This document shows, piece by piece, positions 12,341-19,690 of a stretch of DNA of 64,000 nucleotides (position 1 is the first letter of the stretch; each line of letters opens with the position of its first letter). This stretch comes from Candidatus Saccharicenans sp. (GTDB lineage Bacteria; Acidobacteriota; Aminicenantia; Aminicenantales; Saccharicenantaceae). The position numbers and the translations under genes are program-made. The DNA lies in contig JASEIU010000003.1 in assembly GCA_030017715.1 (NCBI GenBank), positions 186,001 through 250,000 of the forward strand, in the 5' to 3' direction. The notes under the pieces are model-generated. The model was not told where the DNA came from. It saw only the letters and a program-made list of their open reading frames with translations, and ran no database searches.

Positions 12341-14674
12341 TCAGTTCAGACCGTCCCGGGATCGCCCGGTATAGATGACCGGCCTCGGCAGAAAGATTAT
12401 ATTCAGGCTCTTAATCGTTTCTCCCGGCTTTGTTTCGATCGACATCGGCAGCTCAGTCTGAAGTTTAACCCCTCTCGGGACAGTCTCTTCGTCAACCAAA
12501 AGCTGATAGGCGCCGGGCAGGATGTTCTCAAACACAAAGCGGCCCTGTGGGTCGCTGTAGCAGGTCAATTCTTCAATTCGCCATTGCCTCAGCCCCTCGG
12601 GCAACTTCCCATCCTCGACCGCTTTCAGGATGACCAGAACATCCTTGAGCGGCAGGTCTTCCTCATCAAGCAACCTGTTCTTGTTGACGTCCTGAAAAAC
12701 CGTTCCTCCGATTGTGGCCCCTTCTACCAGCACATATTCCAGCCTGGAAGTCTTCCTCTTTTCCACCACCAGCGCCCGGCGTTCCTGGCCCGACAGGTAG
12801 TACTCGGCCGGAATCCGGCTGATTTCCAGGTTGACCGAATGCAACCCCTCGGACACCCGGCCGAAAACAAACCGGCCCTGGGGGTCGGAACTGACGCTGC
12901 TTCCGTCTTCAAGATAAAAGGGGACGCCGGGGAAAGCCCTGTCCTCCGGGTCAAAAATTCCGTTCAGATTCCGGTCGGAAAAAATCAGACCCTCAACCCG
13001 ACCGAGACCGGTCAGCACCGGTCCGGTAGTCCTTCCCTGATAGGCTGCCGGCTCCCCCCAGTTAAAGCGCCGGTCGATCTTTAAGGTCAGCCAGTAATTG
13101 GCCGGCAGGGCAGATTGAAGCGGCCAGCTGGCCCGAAAATCCAGCCTTAGCTTTAACCCCAGCGGCAGCCACCGGCCCAGGCCCAGGTAGAGCTCGGTTC
13201 TTTGGGAAGACTGACTGGTAAAATACCAGGACCTGAGGTCAAGGTAAGACAGCTCGCCGTAAAAATCGGTGCCGAATAAAAAAGGAGAATAGGTGGCCAG
13301 CCGGAGCCGGGTCAGGTTGGAGAGTTTGTTTTCCAGGTAATCATAATAGCGGCTGTCCTCGGCCTCCAGCAGCAGGTAGGCGCTCTTCAGGTAGCTGTAT
13401 CTGAGCCCCAGATAAAACGAAGGGTAGTTGAAATCGCGCTGGTCGTCGACCCGGTCGTCGTAGTGCTGGAACCTGGCCCGGAGATAGGGGTAAAAACGCC
13501 CCAGATTTTTGGAAAGCTGAAGATAAAAACCAGGGCTTATAAAGCTACGGTAATTTTCCCCCGGGTGACGGGATTCGGCCGCGCTGAGGTCCAGCCTCAG
13601 GGTCAGGTCCGGCCAGGGCGGGGTGACCAGAGAAAATCCGGAATTCATCCGCCAGAAGTCAGTGGTGTTAAGTCCGGAACGCCGGTCGACGTTATCGTGG
13701 TAATAATCCACAGAACCAAAAAGAAAAACCCGTCGCCGGGTCTGATAGCGCCAGGAAGCGAAAAAGCCTTCCTGGTCCCGGTCGTATGCGAACTCGCTGC
13801 TGAGGTTTCGGAAGTCGGCATCCACCCGGCGGTAATTGACCTCAAGCCACCAGCGCTGGCCCTGGAGCAGCGGGCCGAAGCGAATCGAAGTTCCCGGGAC
13901 CCTGGCCTGATCGCTCTCCCCGGTCGACAGGCTGGCCCTGGTATCCATGACAAACCTGGCCCGGTCGTTGAAACGCAGCTCGGATTCCACCAGCAGAATA
14001 TCATTGCTCCTGGTCAGCAACTCGCCGCTCCAGCTTCTTTCATTTTCGCTGTGGAGGAAACCGAAGCCGAGAAAATACTTCTTATCGGGTTCAAAACGGC
14101 CCATAAAACCGGCAGCCGTCTGTTCAGTCAGCGAATAGAAATTGCCCAGCAGGCCGGTCAGCCTGGCCACTTTTCCGCTAAAAACTTGCAGTCCGTACTT
14201 CCTGTGCTCGAAGCCGGCGCTCACTCCCCGCAGATAATTGAAAGCCGGGTAATAATTGGTGAAGCGGTAACCCAGGTTGGTCAACTGCAGGCTGTGGTCG
14301 CCCAGCCTTAAGTTCCAGGATAGACGGCCGACCTGTAAACCCTGCCAGCTCAGGTACCAGTGAGCCGCTTCCAGGCCGGAAGAAGACAGGCGACCGTCAA
14401 ACCAACCGCTCAAAACCCCATAATTGATGAATTTCTGCCGGAGCTCGAGGTGCATAATGTTTTCATATTCATTGGCGTAGAAGGGGCCGACCTGAGAATA
14501 AATGCGGCTTCGGTTCCAGTAAGATAAATTCAGGTACCCTTGCTGGGCGGAAAGTTCAGCGACCGCCGACAGCCCGGAAAGGAATAAGAAAACAAGAAGC
14601 CCGCCGGCAAGATTATCCGGGCGTAAAAAGCCTGGCTTCCGTCCAGCCGTCCGCAATGTCCGCCAGAAGCTCAT
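12341..14674 (-). CDS. outer-membrane usher-like beta-barrel with two C-terminal SdrD_B/carboxypeptidase-regulatory-like domains
   Basis: This encodes 777 residues. A signal peptide (hydrophobic LAGGLLVFLFLSGLSAVAEL, cleaved near residue 43) leads into about 510 residues of alternating, aromatic-rich strands, a typical outer-membrane barrel. LRLGD (122-126) and YLRGV (147-151) are in the order seen near the start of chaperone-usher barrels. From about residue 560 come two related beta-sandwich units, each with a DxNxNxxxDxxD calcium-type motif and an SDPQGRFVF turn, like the plug and C-terminal domains of ushers or SdrD_B repeats. The gene closes a tight minus-strand operon (14 bases after the previous gene) with a PapD-like chaperone and subunit-like genes. 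Function as a pilus or surface-fibre assembly platform is inferred from this context; no canonical usher plug inside the barrel is obvious to me. Confidence 0.6.
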   Translation of the reverse strand: MSFWRTLRTAGRKPGFLRPDNLAGGLLVFLFLSGLSAVAELSAQQGYLNLSYWNRSRIYSQVGPFYANEYENIMHLELRQKFINYGVLSGWFDGRLSSSGLEAAHWYLSWQGLQVGRLSWNLRLGDHSLQLTNLGYRFTNYYPAFNYLRGVSAGFEHRKYGLQVFSGKVARLTGLLGNFYSLTEQTAAGFMGRFEPDKKYFLGFGFLHSENERSWSGELLTRSNDILLVESELRFNDRARFVMDTRASLSTGESDQARVPGTSIRFGPLLQGQRWWLEVNYRRVDADFRNLSSEFAYDRDQEGFFASWRYQTRRRVFLFGSVDYYHDNVDRRSGLNTTDFWRMNSGFSLVTPPWPDLTLRLDLSAAESRHPGENYRSFISPGFYLQLSKNLGRFYPYLRARFQHYDDRVDDQRDFNYPSFYLGLRYSYLKSAYLLLEAEDSRYYDYLENKLSNLTRLRLATYSPFLFGTDFYGELSYLDLRSWYFTSQSSQRTELYLGLGRWLPLGLKLRLDFRASWPLQSALPANYWLTLKIDRRFNWGEPAAYQGRTTGPVLTGLGRVEGLIFSDRNLNGIFDPEDRAFPGVPFYLEDGSSVSSDPQGRFVFGRVSEGLHSVNLEISRIPAEYYLSGQERRALVVEKRKTSRLEYVLVEGATIGGTVFQDVNKNRLLDEEDLPLKDVLVILKAVEDGKLPEGLRQWRIEELTCYSDPQGRFVFENILPGAYQLLVDEETVPRGVKLQTELPMSIETKPGETIKSLNIIFLPRPVIYTGRSRDGLN

Positions 14675-14688
14675 TTGCCTTCCGCCAC

Positions 14689-15195
14689 CTAAATCATAGA
14701 AGCGGTAAAAGTAATGATCTGGGTGTATTCACCGGCAACGTAGTTCCAGGAATTCTGAAAATAAAAAGTGAGTTCGGCCTCCTGAGACCCCCTGTTCCGG
14801 GCCAGCACCAGGCTCTGACCGGCTGCCAGAACCCCATCGCTAAAGGGAGGGTTAGGAGTGGCCCGCCAGGAAATAGCGCTGACGGAAATCACCTGCCCCC
14901 CGGCGCTGACCAGATTGCCCTCAGCTCTGATGGTCAGTTCCCACCTGCGGTTGGGGGGCCAGGTTGCGACCTGAATTCTAACCGGTGTGTCGGCCGCAAC
15001 CGACGGCTCCAGGTCGGGGTCAGCCGGCGGAAAAGTGATGGCCGCGGGATAAATGTTGATGGATACCTCCCAGGATTGCGGATCGCCCCGGGAAGGCAGG
15101 CTGAGGCCGGAAAGAATCAGGAAAAATAAACCCGCGGCGCCGACGGCCAGGATTCTGGCCGGCCAGCCTGATTTGACATAAGTCCCGGATTTCAT
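14689..15195 (-). CDS. exported beta-rich subunit-like protein D
   Basis: This encodes 168 residues with an N-terminal signal sequence (AVGAAGLFFLILSGLSL, cleavage near residue 38). The mature part is a string of beta strands: WEVSINIYPAAITF, VRIQVATWPPN, WELTIRAEG, ISWRATP, ELTFYFQNS and the terminal strand AGEYTQIITFTASM. The closing GEY/GTY...T strand is the same style as in subunits at 15202 and 16707 and recalls pilin subunits of archaic (Csu-type) chaperone-usher systems, which end in a GTYxDTVTVT strand. It lies 6 bases after the previous gene and 14 before the barrel gene. It could be an adhesin-type or minor subunit. I do not recognise a named family with certainty. Confidence 0.6.
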   Translation of the reverse strand: MKSGTYVKSGWPARILAVGAAGLFFLILSGLSLPSRGDPQSWEVSINIYPAAITFPPADPDLEPSVAADTPVRIQVATWPPNRRWELTIRAEGNLVSAGGQVISVSAISWRATPNPPFSDGVLAAGQSLVLARNRGSQEAELTFYFQNSWNYVAGEYTQIITFTASMI

Positions 15196-15201
15196 CTTGG
15201 T

Positions 15202-15747
15202 CTACACACCTTCTACCAAAACGGTGACTGTCGTCCGGTAGGAACCCGGAGCCATACTCGGGTCCTCGGCAAAAAAGAAGTAAAGATAACCGGTAAAACT
15301 CCCCGGACCGGCAAACCGGGCTACCAGAACCGGGGAAGCCTTGCTCAGTTGACCTCCATAAAAGTTGCTGCCTTCCGCCTGCCAGCTTATTCTTTCTGCC
15401 GGTATGGTATACCCGGTCGAGCTATCCAGCAGGTCGGAAGAAACCAGGAACCAGACGTTGGTGCTGGAATTATAATCGTTGTTGGTCTTGACCGTCACTT
15501 CAAACCGGCCTTCGTTGGCCGGAATAGTCTGGGGCACTCCGGTTGAGGAACTCCGGGTAAAAGAGACCTGGCTGGTGTTGAGTTCGAGCCGGAAGCGCCT
15601 GGCCACCAGGACCGTCACTCCCAGGTTAGCCGCGCTCTGGGCCAGCAACTGTCCCAGAGTCAAACCGGCCCAGGCCAGCAGGACGGCCAGGGCCAGCCTC
15701 CGTCCTTGATTTCTTTTATTCCGGATTGCCTGCCCGGTTCTTTCCAT
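15202..15747 (-). CDS. exported beta-rich subunit-like protein C
   Basis: This encodes 181 residues, starting at ATG 15747. A basic N-terminus is followed by a hydrophobic segment ALAVLLAWAGLTLGQLLA, with a likely cleavage site near residue 37. The mature protein has VTVLVARRFRLELNTSQVSF, GRFEVTVKTNND, an ISWQAEG strand, LVARFAGPGSFTGYLYFFF and the closing PGSYRTTVTVLVEGV strand. That last strand is again pilin-like and could be the segment that donates or docks in a neighbour. It sits 16 bases after the chaperone gene and 6 before subunit D in one operon. Assignment as a surface-fibre subunit rests on the operon and on shared architecture with 14689-15195 and 16707-17228, not on a recognised family. 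Confidence 0.6.
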   Translation of the reverse strand: MERTGQAIRNKRNQGRRLALAVLLAWAGLTLGQLLAQSAANLGVTVLVARRFRLELNTSQVSFTRSSSTGVPQTIPANEGRFEVTVKTNNDYNSSTNVWFLVSSDLLDSSTGYTIPAERISWQAEGSNFYGGQLSKASPVLVARFAGPGSFTGYLYFFFAEDPSMAPGSYRTTVTVLVEGV

Positions 15748-15763: not shown

Positions 15764-16567
15764 CTATTTAAGCGTAATATCTTTTTCCAGGGCCAGCAAC
15801 TCTTCCCGACCGATGTCCAGCTTGACTTCGGCCTTATAGTTCCCGGGCCCCAGCTTTTCTTTGAACGGAATTATTACCCAGCGCTCACTTCCAGGAAGCA
15901 CCGGCTCGTCCGGAACCTCCAGGCTGAGCGCCTTTCGGCCCTCGGCCGCGGTCAATCTGATTTCGCCCTTCAGCCTAAAATGTGTTCGGCCCGGGTTGCT
16001 CAGCTTGAGCCTGATGGCCTGGAAATCGCCGGCGCTGTCGACCACCAGGTCGGTCAGCGAACCCTGTATCTCCACTTTACCCACCAGCACATAGACGGCA
16101 GCCACAATCTTTCCGGTGAAAGCTACCTGCCCCAGCCTTCCGCCGGGCGGAGCCTCTGGCACCTGTTCAAAAGATATTCCGGCGTGGTAGCCTCCCGGTT
16201 GGGTATCGCCGGGCACGGAAACCGTGAACCGGACCGATTTCATCTCCCCCGGCTGCAATCTGAAATCAAACGGATTTACCCTGATCCAATCCCGGCAGGC
16301 AAAAGCCGTTGGCTGATTACCCAGGAAATTCCTGCTGCCGTCCTCCTTGAGCGTCCAGTTCTCGGTATAGACTTTGAGCCTGACCGGTCTGGGGGAATTA
16401 TTCCTGACGTAAATTACTTCCGTCTTCTGACTGCCAGGCCCGACTTTCAGCTCCAGCCTGATGGGCGTGATGCCGAAATAAATCTGGGCCCGAAGCGGCG
16501 GGCACAGCCAGACCGCAAGCACGACAGCCAGCAAAAACCGCGACCAGCCTGTGAACCGGCCTCTCAT
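15764..16567 (-). CDS. PapD-like periplasmic chaperone for fibre subunits
   Basis: This encodes 267 residues from ATG 16567-16565, which has AGGAGG seven bases upstream; an earlier in-frame ATG at 16618 lacks one. The signal peptide (FLLAVVLAVWLCPPLRAQ) is followed by two immunoglobulin-like domains. IYFGITPIRLELKVGPGSQKTEVIYVRNNS is the G/A-strand start of PapD-type domain 1 with its basic cleft residues (R, K); VRLKVYTENW, LQPGEMKSVRFTVSVP and GGYHAGISFEQVP complete domain 1; domain 2 (about 170-267) ends VLPGSERWVIIPFKEKLGPGNYKAEVKL. Such chaperones hold unfolded subunits in the periplasm by strand complementation. It lies between a terminator hairpin and subunit C. Non-pilus DUF916-like Ig proteins are the alternative, but the neighbours favour a chaperone. 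Confidence 0.65.
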   Translation of the reverse strand: MRGRFTGWSRFLLAVVLAVWLCPPLRAQIYFGITPIRLELKVGPGSQKTEVIYVRNNSPRPVRLKVYTENWTLKEDGSRNFLGNQPTAFACRDWIRVNPFDFRLQPGEMKSVRFTVSVPGDTQPGGYHAGISFEQVPEAPPGGRLGQVAFTGKIVAAVYVLVGKVEIQGSLTDLVVDSAGDFQAIRLKLSNPGRTHFRLKGEIRLTAAEGRKALSLEVPDEPVLPGSERWVIIPFKEKLGPGNYKAEVKLDIGREELLALEKDITLK

Positions 16568-16653
16568 CTTCCGGCCTCCTGTTACCAATTTTCCGGTTCT
16601 CCCATTAACCTGAATCAATTCTATGAAAAGCTAAATTTCCGGTCAAATAAGAC

Positions 16654-16685
16654 AAAAGGGAGAGGGGAAAACTCCTCTCCCTTTT
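16654..16685 (-). terminator. strong hairpin between the main subunit gene and the chaperone gene
   Basis: A perfect 12-bp stem (AAAAGGGAGAGG at 16654-16665 with CCTCTCCCTTTT at 16674-16685) with an 8-base loop is followed, on the minus strand, by TTTTGTCTTATTT. It begins about 21 bases after the stop of the subunit gene at 16707. Partial read-through here would give high subunit and low chaperone/barrel expression, as in classical pilus operons. Confidence 0.75.
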
Positions 16686-16706: not shown

Positions 16707-17228
16707 TCAAATCTTGGAAAGCGTGTAGGTGGCCGTTATGGAATAAGTTCCAGGCTCCTGATTGACATAATCCCTCAGGAAGCTGAAATTGAGCTGCCCT
16801 TCATGCCAGTGGAAAATGCTTCCCGTCCACTGCCCCACCGGGACCGCGTTTCCAGCCAGCAGTGAACCGGCCTGGTAGCCAGAGCCGCTGACCGTCCAGC
16901 TAACCGTGCTGGCGGGAACGGTCGAGTGAAAATCTCCCGCGGCCGTAACGGTCAGGTTCAGAGACGAAGCCGGAACCATGATGGCAAACACTCTGACCGC
17001 CACCGGATTCTCATTGGCCGCAATCTGCACCGTGCCCGGGGTAGCCCCCACGGAGGGAGCTATATCGGTAAAGGTAACAGTATTGGTGCCGATATAAAGG
17101 TCGTACCACTCAGCCAGGGTAACCTGGAAGGTGACCTCCTGCGACTGCTGGGCCGATAAGGGATTGATGGCAACGACCAGCAAGAACACTAACCAGAAAC
17201 CTGACACCCAAAAAGATTTTGCCTTCAC
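16707..17228 (-). CDS. exported beta-rich subunit-like protein B (likely major subunit)
   Basis: This encodes 173 residues from GTG 17228-17226, nine bases after AGGAGG. The signal peptide FWLVFLLVVAINPLSAQQ is cleaved near residue 27. The mature part begins QEVTFQVTLAEWYDLYIG and is made of strands rich in T, V and S (NTVTFTDI, VQIAANENPVAVRVFA, LNLTVTAAGD, STVSWTVSGSGY) with the closing strand EPGTYSITATYTLSKI. This resembles Csu/spore-coat-U-type pilins, which end in a GTYTxT strand. It has its own promoter region (17264-17292) and is followed by a strong terminator, which suggests the most highly expressed member of the cluster. I do not see the conserved cysteine pair of many pilins. The role as structural subunit is inferred. 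Confidence 0.6.
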   Translation of the reverse strand: MKAKSFWVSGFWLVFLLVVAINPLSAQQSQEVTFQVTLAEWYDLYIGTNTVTFTDIAPSVGATPGTVQIAANENPVAVRVFAIMVPASSLNLTVTAAGDFHSTVPASTVSWTVSGSGYQAGSLLAGNAVPVGQWTGSIFHWHEGQLNFSFLRDYVNQEPGTYSITATYTLSKI

Positions 17229-17263: not shown

Positions 17264-17292
17264 TTTATAATACAAGAGTTATGCCAGGTCAA
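17264..17292 (-). promoter_or_regulatory. promoter of the main subunit gene, sigma-70 and sigma-54 readings overlap
   Basis: On the minus strand TTGACC (17292-17287), a 17-base spacer and TATAAA (17269-17264) form a good sigma-70 promoter. Overlapping it, TGGCATAACTCTTGTA (17286-17271) has the exact spacing of a -24/-12 sigma-54 promoter but GT in place of GC at -12. A 20-bp activator-type repeat lies 73 bases upstream of the -24 GG, as at the promoter at 17995-18011, which supports the sigma-54 reading. Confidence 0.5.
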
Positions 17293-17347
17293 GATGGAAA
17301 TGAAAAAAAGTTGTAAGTTATTTATAAGAAAAGATTTATATGACTAA

Positions 17348-17367
17348 GTGTTCGCTTTCATAACACC
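17348..17367. promoter_or_regulatory. activator-site repeat, copy 1
   Basis: GTGTTCGCTTTCATAACACC contains the inverted repeat GTGTT-N9-AACAC. It matches copies at 18071-18090 and 18153-18172 and is centred 73 bases upstream of the -24 GG of the promoter before the subunit B gene. Confidence 0.55.
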
Positions 17368-17443
17368 CCGTGTCCGGGTTTTCGCGCCAAATAATGTCAC
17401 CGGCCTGCGTATTCTGTTCCGAAACTTCTTTTTTTATAAAATT

Positions 17444-17950
17444 TTAAATTGCACTCAGAGTAAATACCGCTTTATAGCGCTGGTTTTGATTATTTTCAGG
17501 ATCCAGGAAAACCAGGCTGCCGGTTTTAAGGCCGCTCCCCTGCCAGACTGCAAAGACGCTTTCCTGTCCGGTCAGAACCAGCCCCTCTCCCTGGAGGTCA
17601 CCCTGGCCCCGCCAGACCAAGGCAGACCGGTCAAAGCGGCCTTCGCCTTCCTTATAAATTATTCCCTTGAGAGCCACCGTCTTTCCCTCGCTCATGGACA
17701 GGAGAACCCGGACCTGAAGCGGCTGGCCGCAAAGGATTTCCGTTTGACCCAGCGCCTGTTCGTTCCCGGTATCTGAAAAACCATCGCTCCCTGATTTTAT
17801 TTCCAGGACCAACCATTCCTTAAGCTCTATGGAAAACGAAGCTCTGGCTGAAGTGTCGGCTCGCAGGAAGGCAATAAGCCCGATCGATAAACAATAAATT
17901 ATGAATAGGAAGAATTTCCACCCTTTGCTATTTTCATTTATTCTCTTCAT
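17444..17950 (-). CDS. exported beta-rich subunit-like protein A
   Basis: This encodes 168 residues from ATG 17950-17948 (AAGGTG about eleven bases upstream), preferred over an earlier in-frame ATG (18040) because the signal peptide WKFFLFIIYCLSIGLIAFL begins near residue 11. The mature part is beta-rich: ASFSIELKEWLVLEI, a GQPLQVRVLLSMSEG strand, ALKGIIYKEGEG, LVWRGQGDL, LVLTGQESVFAVW, SLVFLDPENN and the closing QRYKAVFTLSAI strand, which is like the ends of subunits B to D. It is the first gene of the minus-strand cluster, directly downstream of a sigma-54-type promoter and two activator-type repeats, and 215 bases before subunit B. A minor or tip subunit is possible; I recognise no named family. 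Confidence 0.55.
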   Translation of the reverse strand: MKRINENSKGWKFFLFIIYCLSIGLIAFLRADTSARASFSIELKEWLVLEIKSGSDGFSDTGNEQALGQTEILCGQPLQVRVLLSMSEGKTVALKGIIYKEGEGRFDRSALVWRGQGDLQGEGLVLTGQESVFAVWQGSGLKTGSLVFLDPENNQNQRYKAVFTLSAI

Positions 17951-17994
17951 GTTTATCTTACACCTTGTCATCTCCCATCCGTTGCCTTTAATAA

Positions 17995-18011
17995 AGCAAT
18001 ATTCATACCAG
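17995..18011 (-). promoter_or_regulatory. sigma-54 (-24/-12) promoter of the fibre cluster
   Basis: On the minus strand CTGGTATGAATATTGCT matches the sigma-54 consensus CTGGYAYG-N4-TTGCW at almost every position, with GG (18009-18008) and GC (17997-17996) ten bases apart. Transcription would start near 17984, giving a leader of about 35 bases before ATG 17950. The sigma-54 activator gene lies directly upstream on the same strand. Confidence 0.75.
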
Positions 18012-18070
18012 CCGGGCCACAACCATCTAATTGATATCAAATAAGTTACGGAATAAGCAGTTTTTATTGA

Positions 18071-18090
18071 CTGTCCGCTTTTGTTACATC
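18071..18090. promoter_or_regulatory. activator-site repeat, copy 2
   Basis: CTGTCCGCTTTTGTTACATC matches copy 1 at 14 of 20 positions by hand count and is centred 72 bases upstream of the -24 GG at 18008-18009. Its symmetry is weaker than that of copies 1 and 3. Confidence 0.5.
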
Positions 18091-18152
18091 AGATTGGAGG
18101 GCTTTTTAGATTAATTCTTTAGAAATCAAGCAGATAGCGAATAAATGACCGA

Positions 18153-18172
18153 GTGTTCTTATTTGTTACACC
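18153..18172. promoter_or_regulatory. activator-site repeat, copy 3
   Basis: GTGTTCTTATTTGTTACACC has the inverted repeat GTGTT-N9-TACAC and lies 82 bases (about eight helical turns) upstream of copy 2, on the same face of the DNA. Paired sites 70-160 bases before a -24/-12 promoter are typical for hexamer-forming activators. Confidence 0.55.
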
Positions 18173-18331: not shown

Positions 18332-19690
18332 TCAGACGTCGAGCTTGTACTTCTTCAGCTTCCGGTACAGAGCCGGCCTGGTTATGCCAAGTGCCCTGGC
18401 CGCTTTCTGCTTATTAAATCCGTTGGCCCGCAGGACCTCCAGCAAATGTTTCTTCTCGATTTCAGAAAGGGTAAGATTGACATAAGGGTAGGTTTTATCC
18501 CCCACCAGCTCAGTCTCCACCAGGCTGATCATCCCTTCCGGCAGATGCTGAATATCAATAAAATTGTCGGCGGTCAGCATCACTCCCCGCTCAATTACCT
18601 TTTCCAGCTCCCGGATATTTCCGGGCCAATCATATTCGAACAGTATCTTCTTTACCCGGTTGGATAGGCCACGGACCGCTTTCCCGAACCGCTGGTTATA
18701 GCGGTCAATGAAGTGCAGGCAGAGAAGCGGGATATCTTCCTTTCTCTTTCTCAGGGGAGGCAGGTTGACCTCGGCCACGTTAATCCGATGAAACAGGTCT
18801 TCCCGGAAGGTTCCCTTTTTTATCTCTTCTCTCAGGTTCCGGTTGGTGGCGCAGATGACCCTGACATCAACCTTCACCAGCCGGTTGGCTCCCAGCGGCT
18901 TGAAGGTCCTTTCCGACAGAAACCTCAGCAATTTAGCCTGACTGCTCAGAGGAATTTCGCTGATTTCATCAAAAAAAATGGTCCCGCCGTCTGCTTCCTT
19001 CAATAAGCCATTCTTAGCCCGGTCGGCGCCAGTAAAAGCGCCGCGCTCGTAGCCGAAGACTTCGGATTCGAACAGCGATTCGGGCAGGGTGGTGCAGTCA
19101 ACCACCACCAGGGGCCTGTCCTTCCGCGGGCTGAGGCGGTGAAGAGCCCGGGCCGCCAGCTCTTTTCCGGTTCCGGTTTCGCCTGTTACCAGGACTGTGA
19201 TCTGGTGCCTGGCCAGCCTTTCCACCAGAGTGAACAGCTCCAGCATAATCGGGTTGCGGCTGACCATCCCTTCAAAAATATATTTGCTGGCCAGCTCTCT
19301 CTCTAACTGGTAAGTTTCCCGCCGGACGGATATCTTTTCTTCCAGTTTCTTCAGGCTTTCAGCCAGAGCTTCGGGCCTCACCGGCAGACTGAGATAATCG
19401 AGAGCTCCGGCCTTGATCACCTCCGCCACCCTGGCTTCGCTCTCCGGTTGCCCCAGGACAATGACTTCCAGCAGGGGGTCGTAGCTTTTTATCTTCTGAA
19501 GCTGTGAAACGGCTTCAGACAGCCGGCCTTCCCTGACCAGAAGAATTATCCGGGGTTTTTGCCGGTTGATCAGCGAGATAAGGTCTTCTTCAGCCCCGGC
19601 CAGGGTTAGCTGGCAGGCTCCGGGAGGCATGGCCTGAGCTATCTTTCCGGCCACCCCCTCATCGGCAGAAATGATTAATATCTTTAACAT
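18332..19690 (-). CDS. sigma-54-dependent transcriptional activator with pseudo-receiver domain
   Basis: This encodes 452 residues from ATG 19690-19688; an upstream in-frame start (19756) would add an unlikely tail. Domains: receiver-like fold (1-118), AAA+ sigma-54 interaction domain (about 140-370) with Walker A GETGTGKE (170-177), GAFTGA (217-222) and Walker B IFFDE, then a Fis-type helix-turn-helix at the C-terminus (QKAARALGITRPALYRKLKKY). In the receiver domain the acidic pair D10/E11 remains, but the phospho-acceptor position reads IILLVREG (V52 in place of Asp) and the usual KP is LP (L102). So it is unlikely to be controlled by phosphorylation. GAFTGA shows it can contact sigma-54. 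Its position directly upstream of the fibre cluster makes it the likely regulator of that cluster. Confidence 0.9.
   Translation of the reverse strand: MLKILIISADEGVAGKIAQAMPPGACQLTLAGAEEDLISLINRQKPRIILLVREGRLSEAVSQLQKIKSYDPLLEVIVLGQPESEARVAEVIKAGALDYLSLPVRPEALAESLKKLEEKISVRRETYQLERELASKYIFEGMVSRNPIMLELFTLVERLARHQITVLVTGETGTGKELAARALHRLSPRKDRPLVVVDCTTLPESLFESEVFGYERGAFTGADRAKNGLLKEADGGTIFFDEISEIPLSSQAKLLRFLSERTFKPLGANRLVKVDVRVICATNRNLREEIKKGTFREDLFHRINVAEVNLPPLRKRKEDIPLLCLHFIDRYNQRFGKAVRGLSNRVKKILFEYDWPGNIRELEKVIERGVMLTADNFIDIQHLPEGMISLVETELVGDKTYPYVNLTLSEIEKKHLLEVLRANGFNKQKAARALGITRPALYRKLKKYKLDV

Follow-up and report, generated by a model that had tools for sequence, protein, structure and literature searches.

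A predicted sigma-54-switched operon for a chaperone-usher-like pilus in Candidatus Saccharicenans, with paired activator sites and a composite subunit promoter

The window analyzed here, a stretch of 64,000 nucleotides from the 2.9 Mb genome of a Candidatus Saccharicenans (Aminicenantes), which belongs to an uncultivated lineage of Acidobacteriota, is best explained, with a probability of about four in five, as carrying a sigma-54-switched operon for a chaperone-usher-like pilus: its components would be an adjacent activator, two upstream activator sites (UAS1 and UAS2), an IHF-type bend, and a composite promoter before the second subunit gene. All the features studied are on the minus strand, where the genes are ordered as follows.

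18332..19690, minus strand: NtrC-type sigma-54 activator (bEBP), with a degenerate receiver, a GAFTGA-containing AAA+ domain and a Fis-type HTH, as identified by Pfam
17444..17950, minus strand: pA, pilin-like surface subunit carrying a signal peptide (inferred start codon); an ortholog is present in all loci
16707..17228, minus strand: pB, probable major pilin subunit with Ig-like fold (AlphaFold model, pLDDT 86.6)
15764..16618, minus strand: periplasmic chaperone-like protein, conserved family A1
15202..15747, minus strand: pC, pilin-like paralogue, 28-29% identical to pB (tblastn)
14689..15195, minus strand: pD, pilin-like subunit (pD rows 21-27% identical to pB in alignment A3)
12341..14674, minus strand: usher-like outer-membrane beta-barrel with C-terminal SdrD_B-like domains (fold search with the model; SdrD_B 5.7e-10)

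The nature of the locus was judged mainly from two structural models. The pB model is an Ig-like sandwich, with CfaE, FimG and CsuA/B among its best structural matches, at modest Z values of 5-7 (below 8); for the barrel, whose model is of middling quality (mean pLDDT 71.6), the top fold matches are the FimD and PapC ushers (E 1.6e-16). On the basis of these fold matches, the locus would encode a divergent chaperone-usher-like pilus. Periplasmic chaperone, FimD/PapC-like barrel, Ig-like subunits and a terminator following the probable major subunit are all shared with the Fim, Pap, Csu and CFA/I systems. Unlike these, the subunits match no pilin family in Pfam, and the barrel, which matches no usher family in Pfam or NCBIfam, ends in SdrD_B-like domains. 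It features about 26 predicted strands and two such domains, and is possibly a new usher family in Acidobacteriota. The chaperone-like protein is PapD-like by motif, in our own reading: the window protein has a weak WxLIP_PGBD match below cut-off, one remote homologue passes the cut-off, and comparison of the family profile with solved structures gave no useful match. pA and pB share about 24% identity (tblastn).

Pilus genes are found in 13 of 19 members of the genus (window counted), in two genomes of family f5, and in the G052 and G078/G079 genomes; a fourteenth genus member, G009, has the activator and pA but only the beginning of pB, where its contig ends. A second chaperone-like gene lies between pD and usher in G052 and G078/G079 (loci L052, L074 and L075). 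Just after the pA stop codon, most genus members (L038-L045) contain a conserved GGAGTTTAATGACA, followed by a reading frame of 6-7 codons, which may represent a very small ORF or belong to a regulatory site; both are absent from the window.

The region between the activator gene and pA contains four elements, whose positions, spacing and conservation can be read directly from the aligned sequences.

17995..18011, minus strand: promoter A, sigma-54 -24/-12, CTGGTATGAATATTGCT, present in the orthologous loci and perfect in most
18025..18044, minus strand: AT-rich, IHF-like element that separates UAS1 from promoter A and fits the consensus at 8-9 of 9 positions in each of the 17 genomes
18071..18090, minus strand: UAS1, proximal candidate activator site, GATGTAACAAAAGCGGACAG, a 17/17 consensus match, present in 17/17 loci
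18153..18172, minus strand: UAS2, distal candidate activator site, GGTGTAACAAATAAGAACAC, conserved in 17/17 orthologous loci

Promoter A, described as near-perfect in an earlier note on this DNA, indeed fits 15 of 16 positions in the window and 16 of 16 in most relatives (context YTGGCACR-N4-TTGCW, core GG-N10-GC). It occupies the same place, between activator and pA, in 17 orthologous loci, where it is usually perfect, the weakest copies being those of the window and of f5, and it is retained in essentially every related locus fetched. A -24/-12 site beside an orthologous activator is also present in G078, from the same order, and in G153 and G394, from other orders of the same class. Because of this conservation, over 17 orthologous loci and three more divergent ones, there is strong support at the sequence level for reading it as a sigma-54 promoter that depends on an activator and has paired upstream sites. 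Scanning the 2.9 Mb genome, as the earlier note had proposed, yields ten CTGGYAYRN4TTGCW sites, against 0 for the reversed pattern.

The candidate activator sites share a 17-bp inverted repeat, TGTAACRAAARCGRACA, found in two copies upstream of promoter A in 17/17 orthologous loci. The copies are usually 82 bp apart, and in most genomes they begin at positions -159 and -77 relative to the -24 element; in f5 the spacing is 52-53 bp. In 16 of 17 genomes the best UAS scores above all 200 shuffled versions of its upstream region, and in G052 above 199 of 200; together with the ten promoter sites against none, this bears out the claim that the arrangement goes beyond chance. The three motif copies originally proposed are found, at 17348-17367, 18071-18090 and 18153-18172, but the motif as written, having 19 letters, matches none of them: its corrected 20-letter form, STGTYCNNWTTYRTWACAYC, matches exactly three times in the genome, always at this locus. 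Distances from motif center to the GG of the -24 element are exactly as claimed: 72 bp at A, 73 bp at B, and 154 bp (72+82) for the distal copy. A location on the same helical face, in contrast, holds only approximately, as 82 bp correspond to 7.8 turns at 10.5 bp; helical phasing of the UAS spacing is not significant over nine lineages (p about 0.14-0.37).

Outside these loci, the paired arrangement can be followed in part. In G153 and G394 an activator 50-54% identical lies next to the -24/-12 site: G394 features two UAS copies (16/17 and 14/17 matches) separated by 80 bp, while G153 features one recognizable copy (13/17) and a perfect dyad, GTGTCCGATTTCGGACAC. In G078 the -24/-12 site is kept with one weak copy (12/17). 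Over 60 genomes, UAS copies with zero mismatches are only found at the pilus locus; matches with two mismatches are scattered, about one per genome outside the locus.

The IHF-like element at A is enriched at its position: its summed score over the 17 genomes is 143, whereas shuffled sequences average 116 and reach at most 123, a difference inflated by the relatedness of the genomes, and therefore counted as support rather than proof. IHF identity was judged by the consensus WATCAANNNNTTR alone, in AT-rich DNA. One sigma-54 gene and two HU/IHF-family genes, of either HU or IHF type, are present in the genome.

The product of 18332-19690 has the features of a sigma-54 activator: an AAA+ domain (Sigma54_activat, 1.8e-65) with Walker A and a GAFTGA loop, the latter intact in 20/20 orthologues, and a C-terminal Fis-type HTH (HTH_8, 1.9e-15). 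Its receiver, with a Response_reg match of just 21 bits, under the cut-off, is degenerate: the phospho-acceptor Asp is replaced by Val and the conserved Lys by Leu. Among the 20 activators, window included, Asp is replaced (V/K/E/R) in 17 and Lys in 18; only G153 and G394 keep both residues and G078 keeps Asp, these being the most distant loci. Since Asp is lost while GAFTGA is intact, the protein works like an enhancer-binding protein, though probably not through phosphorylation. The window protein, where Asp and Lys are both replaced, does not fit group I, comprising bEBPs that act as phosphorylated response regulators. The nearest named family is PrsR (TIGR02915), to which the protein cannot be assigned, scoring 355.6 bits against a cut-off of 502.6. 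A search of a viral collection found no relatives of the activator. In G007 the activator gene (L053:1593-2938) is split into two reading frames, by a frameshift or an assembly error. In the activator tree, f5 falls in with the Saccharicenans genus and a separate group is made up of f2, f6 and f10, which suggests horizontal transfer or old paralogy.

Being of NtrC type and always adjacent to the pilus locus (50-88% identity among relatives), this protein is the best candidate to bind UAS1 and UAS2. The genome encodes ten or so similar bEBP proteins, so that the sites might be bound by another of them, or by a regulator of a different kind, the adjacent gene being a mere neighbor. This is very improbable: activator and twin sites are found side by side in different families and orders of the class, and no exact UAS is found elsewhere in 60 genomes. 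Besides, a 17-bp dyad is what is expected for a Fis-type HTH dimer.

According to the preferred reading, the adjacent activator would bind UAS1 and UAS2 as oligomers, an IHF/HU-type protein would bend the DNA between UAS and promoter A, and the AAA+ domain would remodel sigma-54 RNA polymerase on promoter A, leading to transcription of pA. With the phospho-acceptor gone from the receiver, the regulatory signal would probably be the level of the activator, a ligand or a partner, and not a histidine kinase. Control of PEP-CTERM surface genes by PrsK/PrsR and RpoN (PMC9850573) is similar in the AtoC/PrsR-type bEBP, in having a surface protein as target, and in the -24/-12 promoter with a predicted enhancer; it differs in that the target here is a pilus operon, and no kinase gene is seen beside the activator.

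A more complex situation is found before pB, where the following elements are located.

17264..17292, minus strand: sigma-70-like promoter TTGACC-17-TATAAA around promoter B, in aligned genus loci
17271..17287, minus strand: promoter B, sigma-54 -24/-12, CTGGCATAACTCTTGTA; CTGGCATAACTCCTGCA or close in most relatives
17314..17326, minus strand: IHF-like element, TATAAATAACTTA, fitting 8/9 IHF consensus positions, in a conserved region
17348..17367, minus strand: UAS3, third candidate activator-site copy, a 15/17 match, only in the window genome
17384..17399, minus strand: conserved element TGACATTATTTGGCGC, in genus loci keeping the B sigma-54 site

The weaker -24/-12 site that had been proposed before subunit B is found in its place, with GT for GC at -12 in the window. 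Most of the genus carries CTGGCATAACTCCTGCA; f5, G052 and G078 carry a -24/-12 site of another sequence. The sigma-70 promoter TTGACC/TATAAA, considered earlier as the alternative, turns out to be conserved in the genus, while the sigma-54 site is also kept in most relatives: in the aligned loci, the -35 TTGAC is invariant, the -10 is conserved, and the -24/-12 lies inside TTGAC-17-TATAAA. Promoter B may thus be described as composite, a -24/-12 within a sigma-70 promoter, before the gene for the probable major pilin.

That a common activator serves A and B, as originally proposed, is plausible in the window genome, through UAS3; it is supported only there, since the site at B is absent from every other relative. 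Searching both strands over 500 bp near B in the relatives found no UAS, the best match being at most 13/17. UAS3, with its two mismatches to the consensus, its absence from all relatives and the degraded -12 it would serve, might be a chance resemblance, leaving B outside the control of this activator in the window genome as well. This is unlikely: as matches with up to two mismatches occur about once per genome outside the locus, one at the working distance (73 vs 72 bp) has, by our own estimate, a chance of at most 1e-4 per genome. As the reference copy of a 31-nt repeat family, UAS3 moreover shares 71% with UAS2. In the preferred reading, B too would be reached by this activator in the window genome, through UAS3.

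For B in the other genomes, the options left are another input, action at a distance from UAS1/UAS2, or a sigma-70 promoter with sigma-54 as competitor. The other input might be read at the element TGACAtaatTTGGCGC (a TGACA element, at 17384-17399 in the window), which has essentially one match per genome, at B (also in L038, L040 and L041), and is possibly the site of a second regulator. In relatives, a second TGACA is found about 21 bp further upstream.

The competitor hypothesis was weighed separately: sigma-54 polymerase parked at the -24/-12 would occlude the sigma-70 promoter, which makes the pB mRNA. It would account for a -24/-12 conserved inside TTGAC-17-TATAAA where most genomes have no UAS, and similar occlusion has been documented for overlapping E. 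coli promoters (PMC4551910) and was suggested for Neisseria pilE (PMC6755734). Yet, the IHF-like and TGACA elements are kept where the -24/-12 is kept and absent where it is lost, which fits an active, enhancer-dependent promoter, and in the window genome UAS3 arose at working distance. Occlusion is regarded as a possibility with clearly less than even chances. With the E. coli overlapping promoters, B shares a -24/-12 inside the sigma-70 footprint (PMC4551910); it differs in being conserved across species, some relatives having lost the sigma-54 half.

Such loss is seen in G012, G013 and G018, while in G003 the site is degraded or weak. All four fit 10-11 of 12 sigma-70 positions at B, and have neither the IHF-like element nor TGACAtaatTTGGCGC there; in these relatives sigma-70 appears to have replaced sigma-54. 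In the activator tree, the loci that have both elements at B, ten in number, form one clade (90/89), and the four sigma-70-only loci arose by either one loss or two.

Downstream of pB, two further elements would set the assembly genes apart.

16654..16685, minus strand: intrinsic terminator after pB, with a 12-bp stem and a T-rich tail
16618..16646, minus strand: sigma-70-like promoter TTGACC-17-TAGAAT before the chaperone gene, recurring in orthologous gaps

A strong hairpin is present at the same place after pB in 13 of 14 loci, followed in most by a T-rich tract; no comparable hairpin was found after pA in nine loci tested. Terminator and separate promoter complete a layout resembling that of Neisseria pilE. 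The latter gene depends on RpoN, IHF and Nps/Npa in commensals and on sigma-70 in pathogens (PMC6528607, PMC6755734); pilE alone is under RpoN, and sigma-70 serves those other Tfp biogenesis genes that were tested (PMC6528607). Common to the two systems are a sigma-54 pilin gene with an upstream UAS and an IHF site between, assembly genes on sigma-70, and relatives that show sigma-54 alone, the two elements together, or use of sigma-70. They differ in several respects: the Neisseria pilus is of type IV, while the one described here would be of chaperone-usher-like type; Npa is phosphorylated by Nps, while this activator lacks the Asp; and here there are two tandem UAS and two subunit promoters, with the evolutionary series at B only.

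The series at B may be arranged in stages: other families have the sigma-54 site without this overlap, ten genus members combine both elements, and four have sigma-70 alone or almost alone. We infer its direction, from sigma-54 to sigma-70. Whether sigma-54 was replaced through an overlapping, dual stage, in parallel to and independently of Neisseria pilE and alongside an activator freed from phosphorylation, is an evenly balanced question.

All the parts described are of known kinds: what is new is their combination and the evolutionary series. For an uncultivated phylum, the locus yields predictions of an activator, of its DNA site and of the promoters it targets, together with an activator family in which some receivers have the phospho-acceptor and others lack it, although their loci are otherwise alike. 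Promoter B would be a second case, beside Neisseria pilE, of a pilin gene moving from an activator-dependent sigma factor to the housekeeping one.
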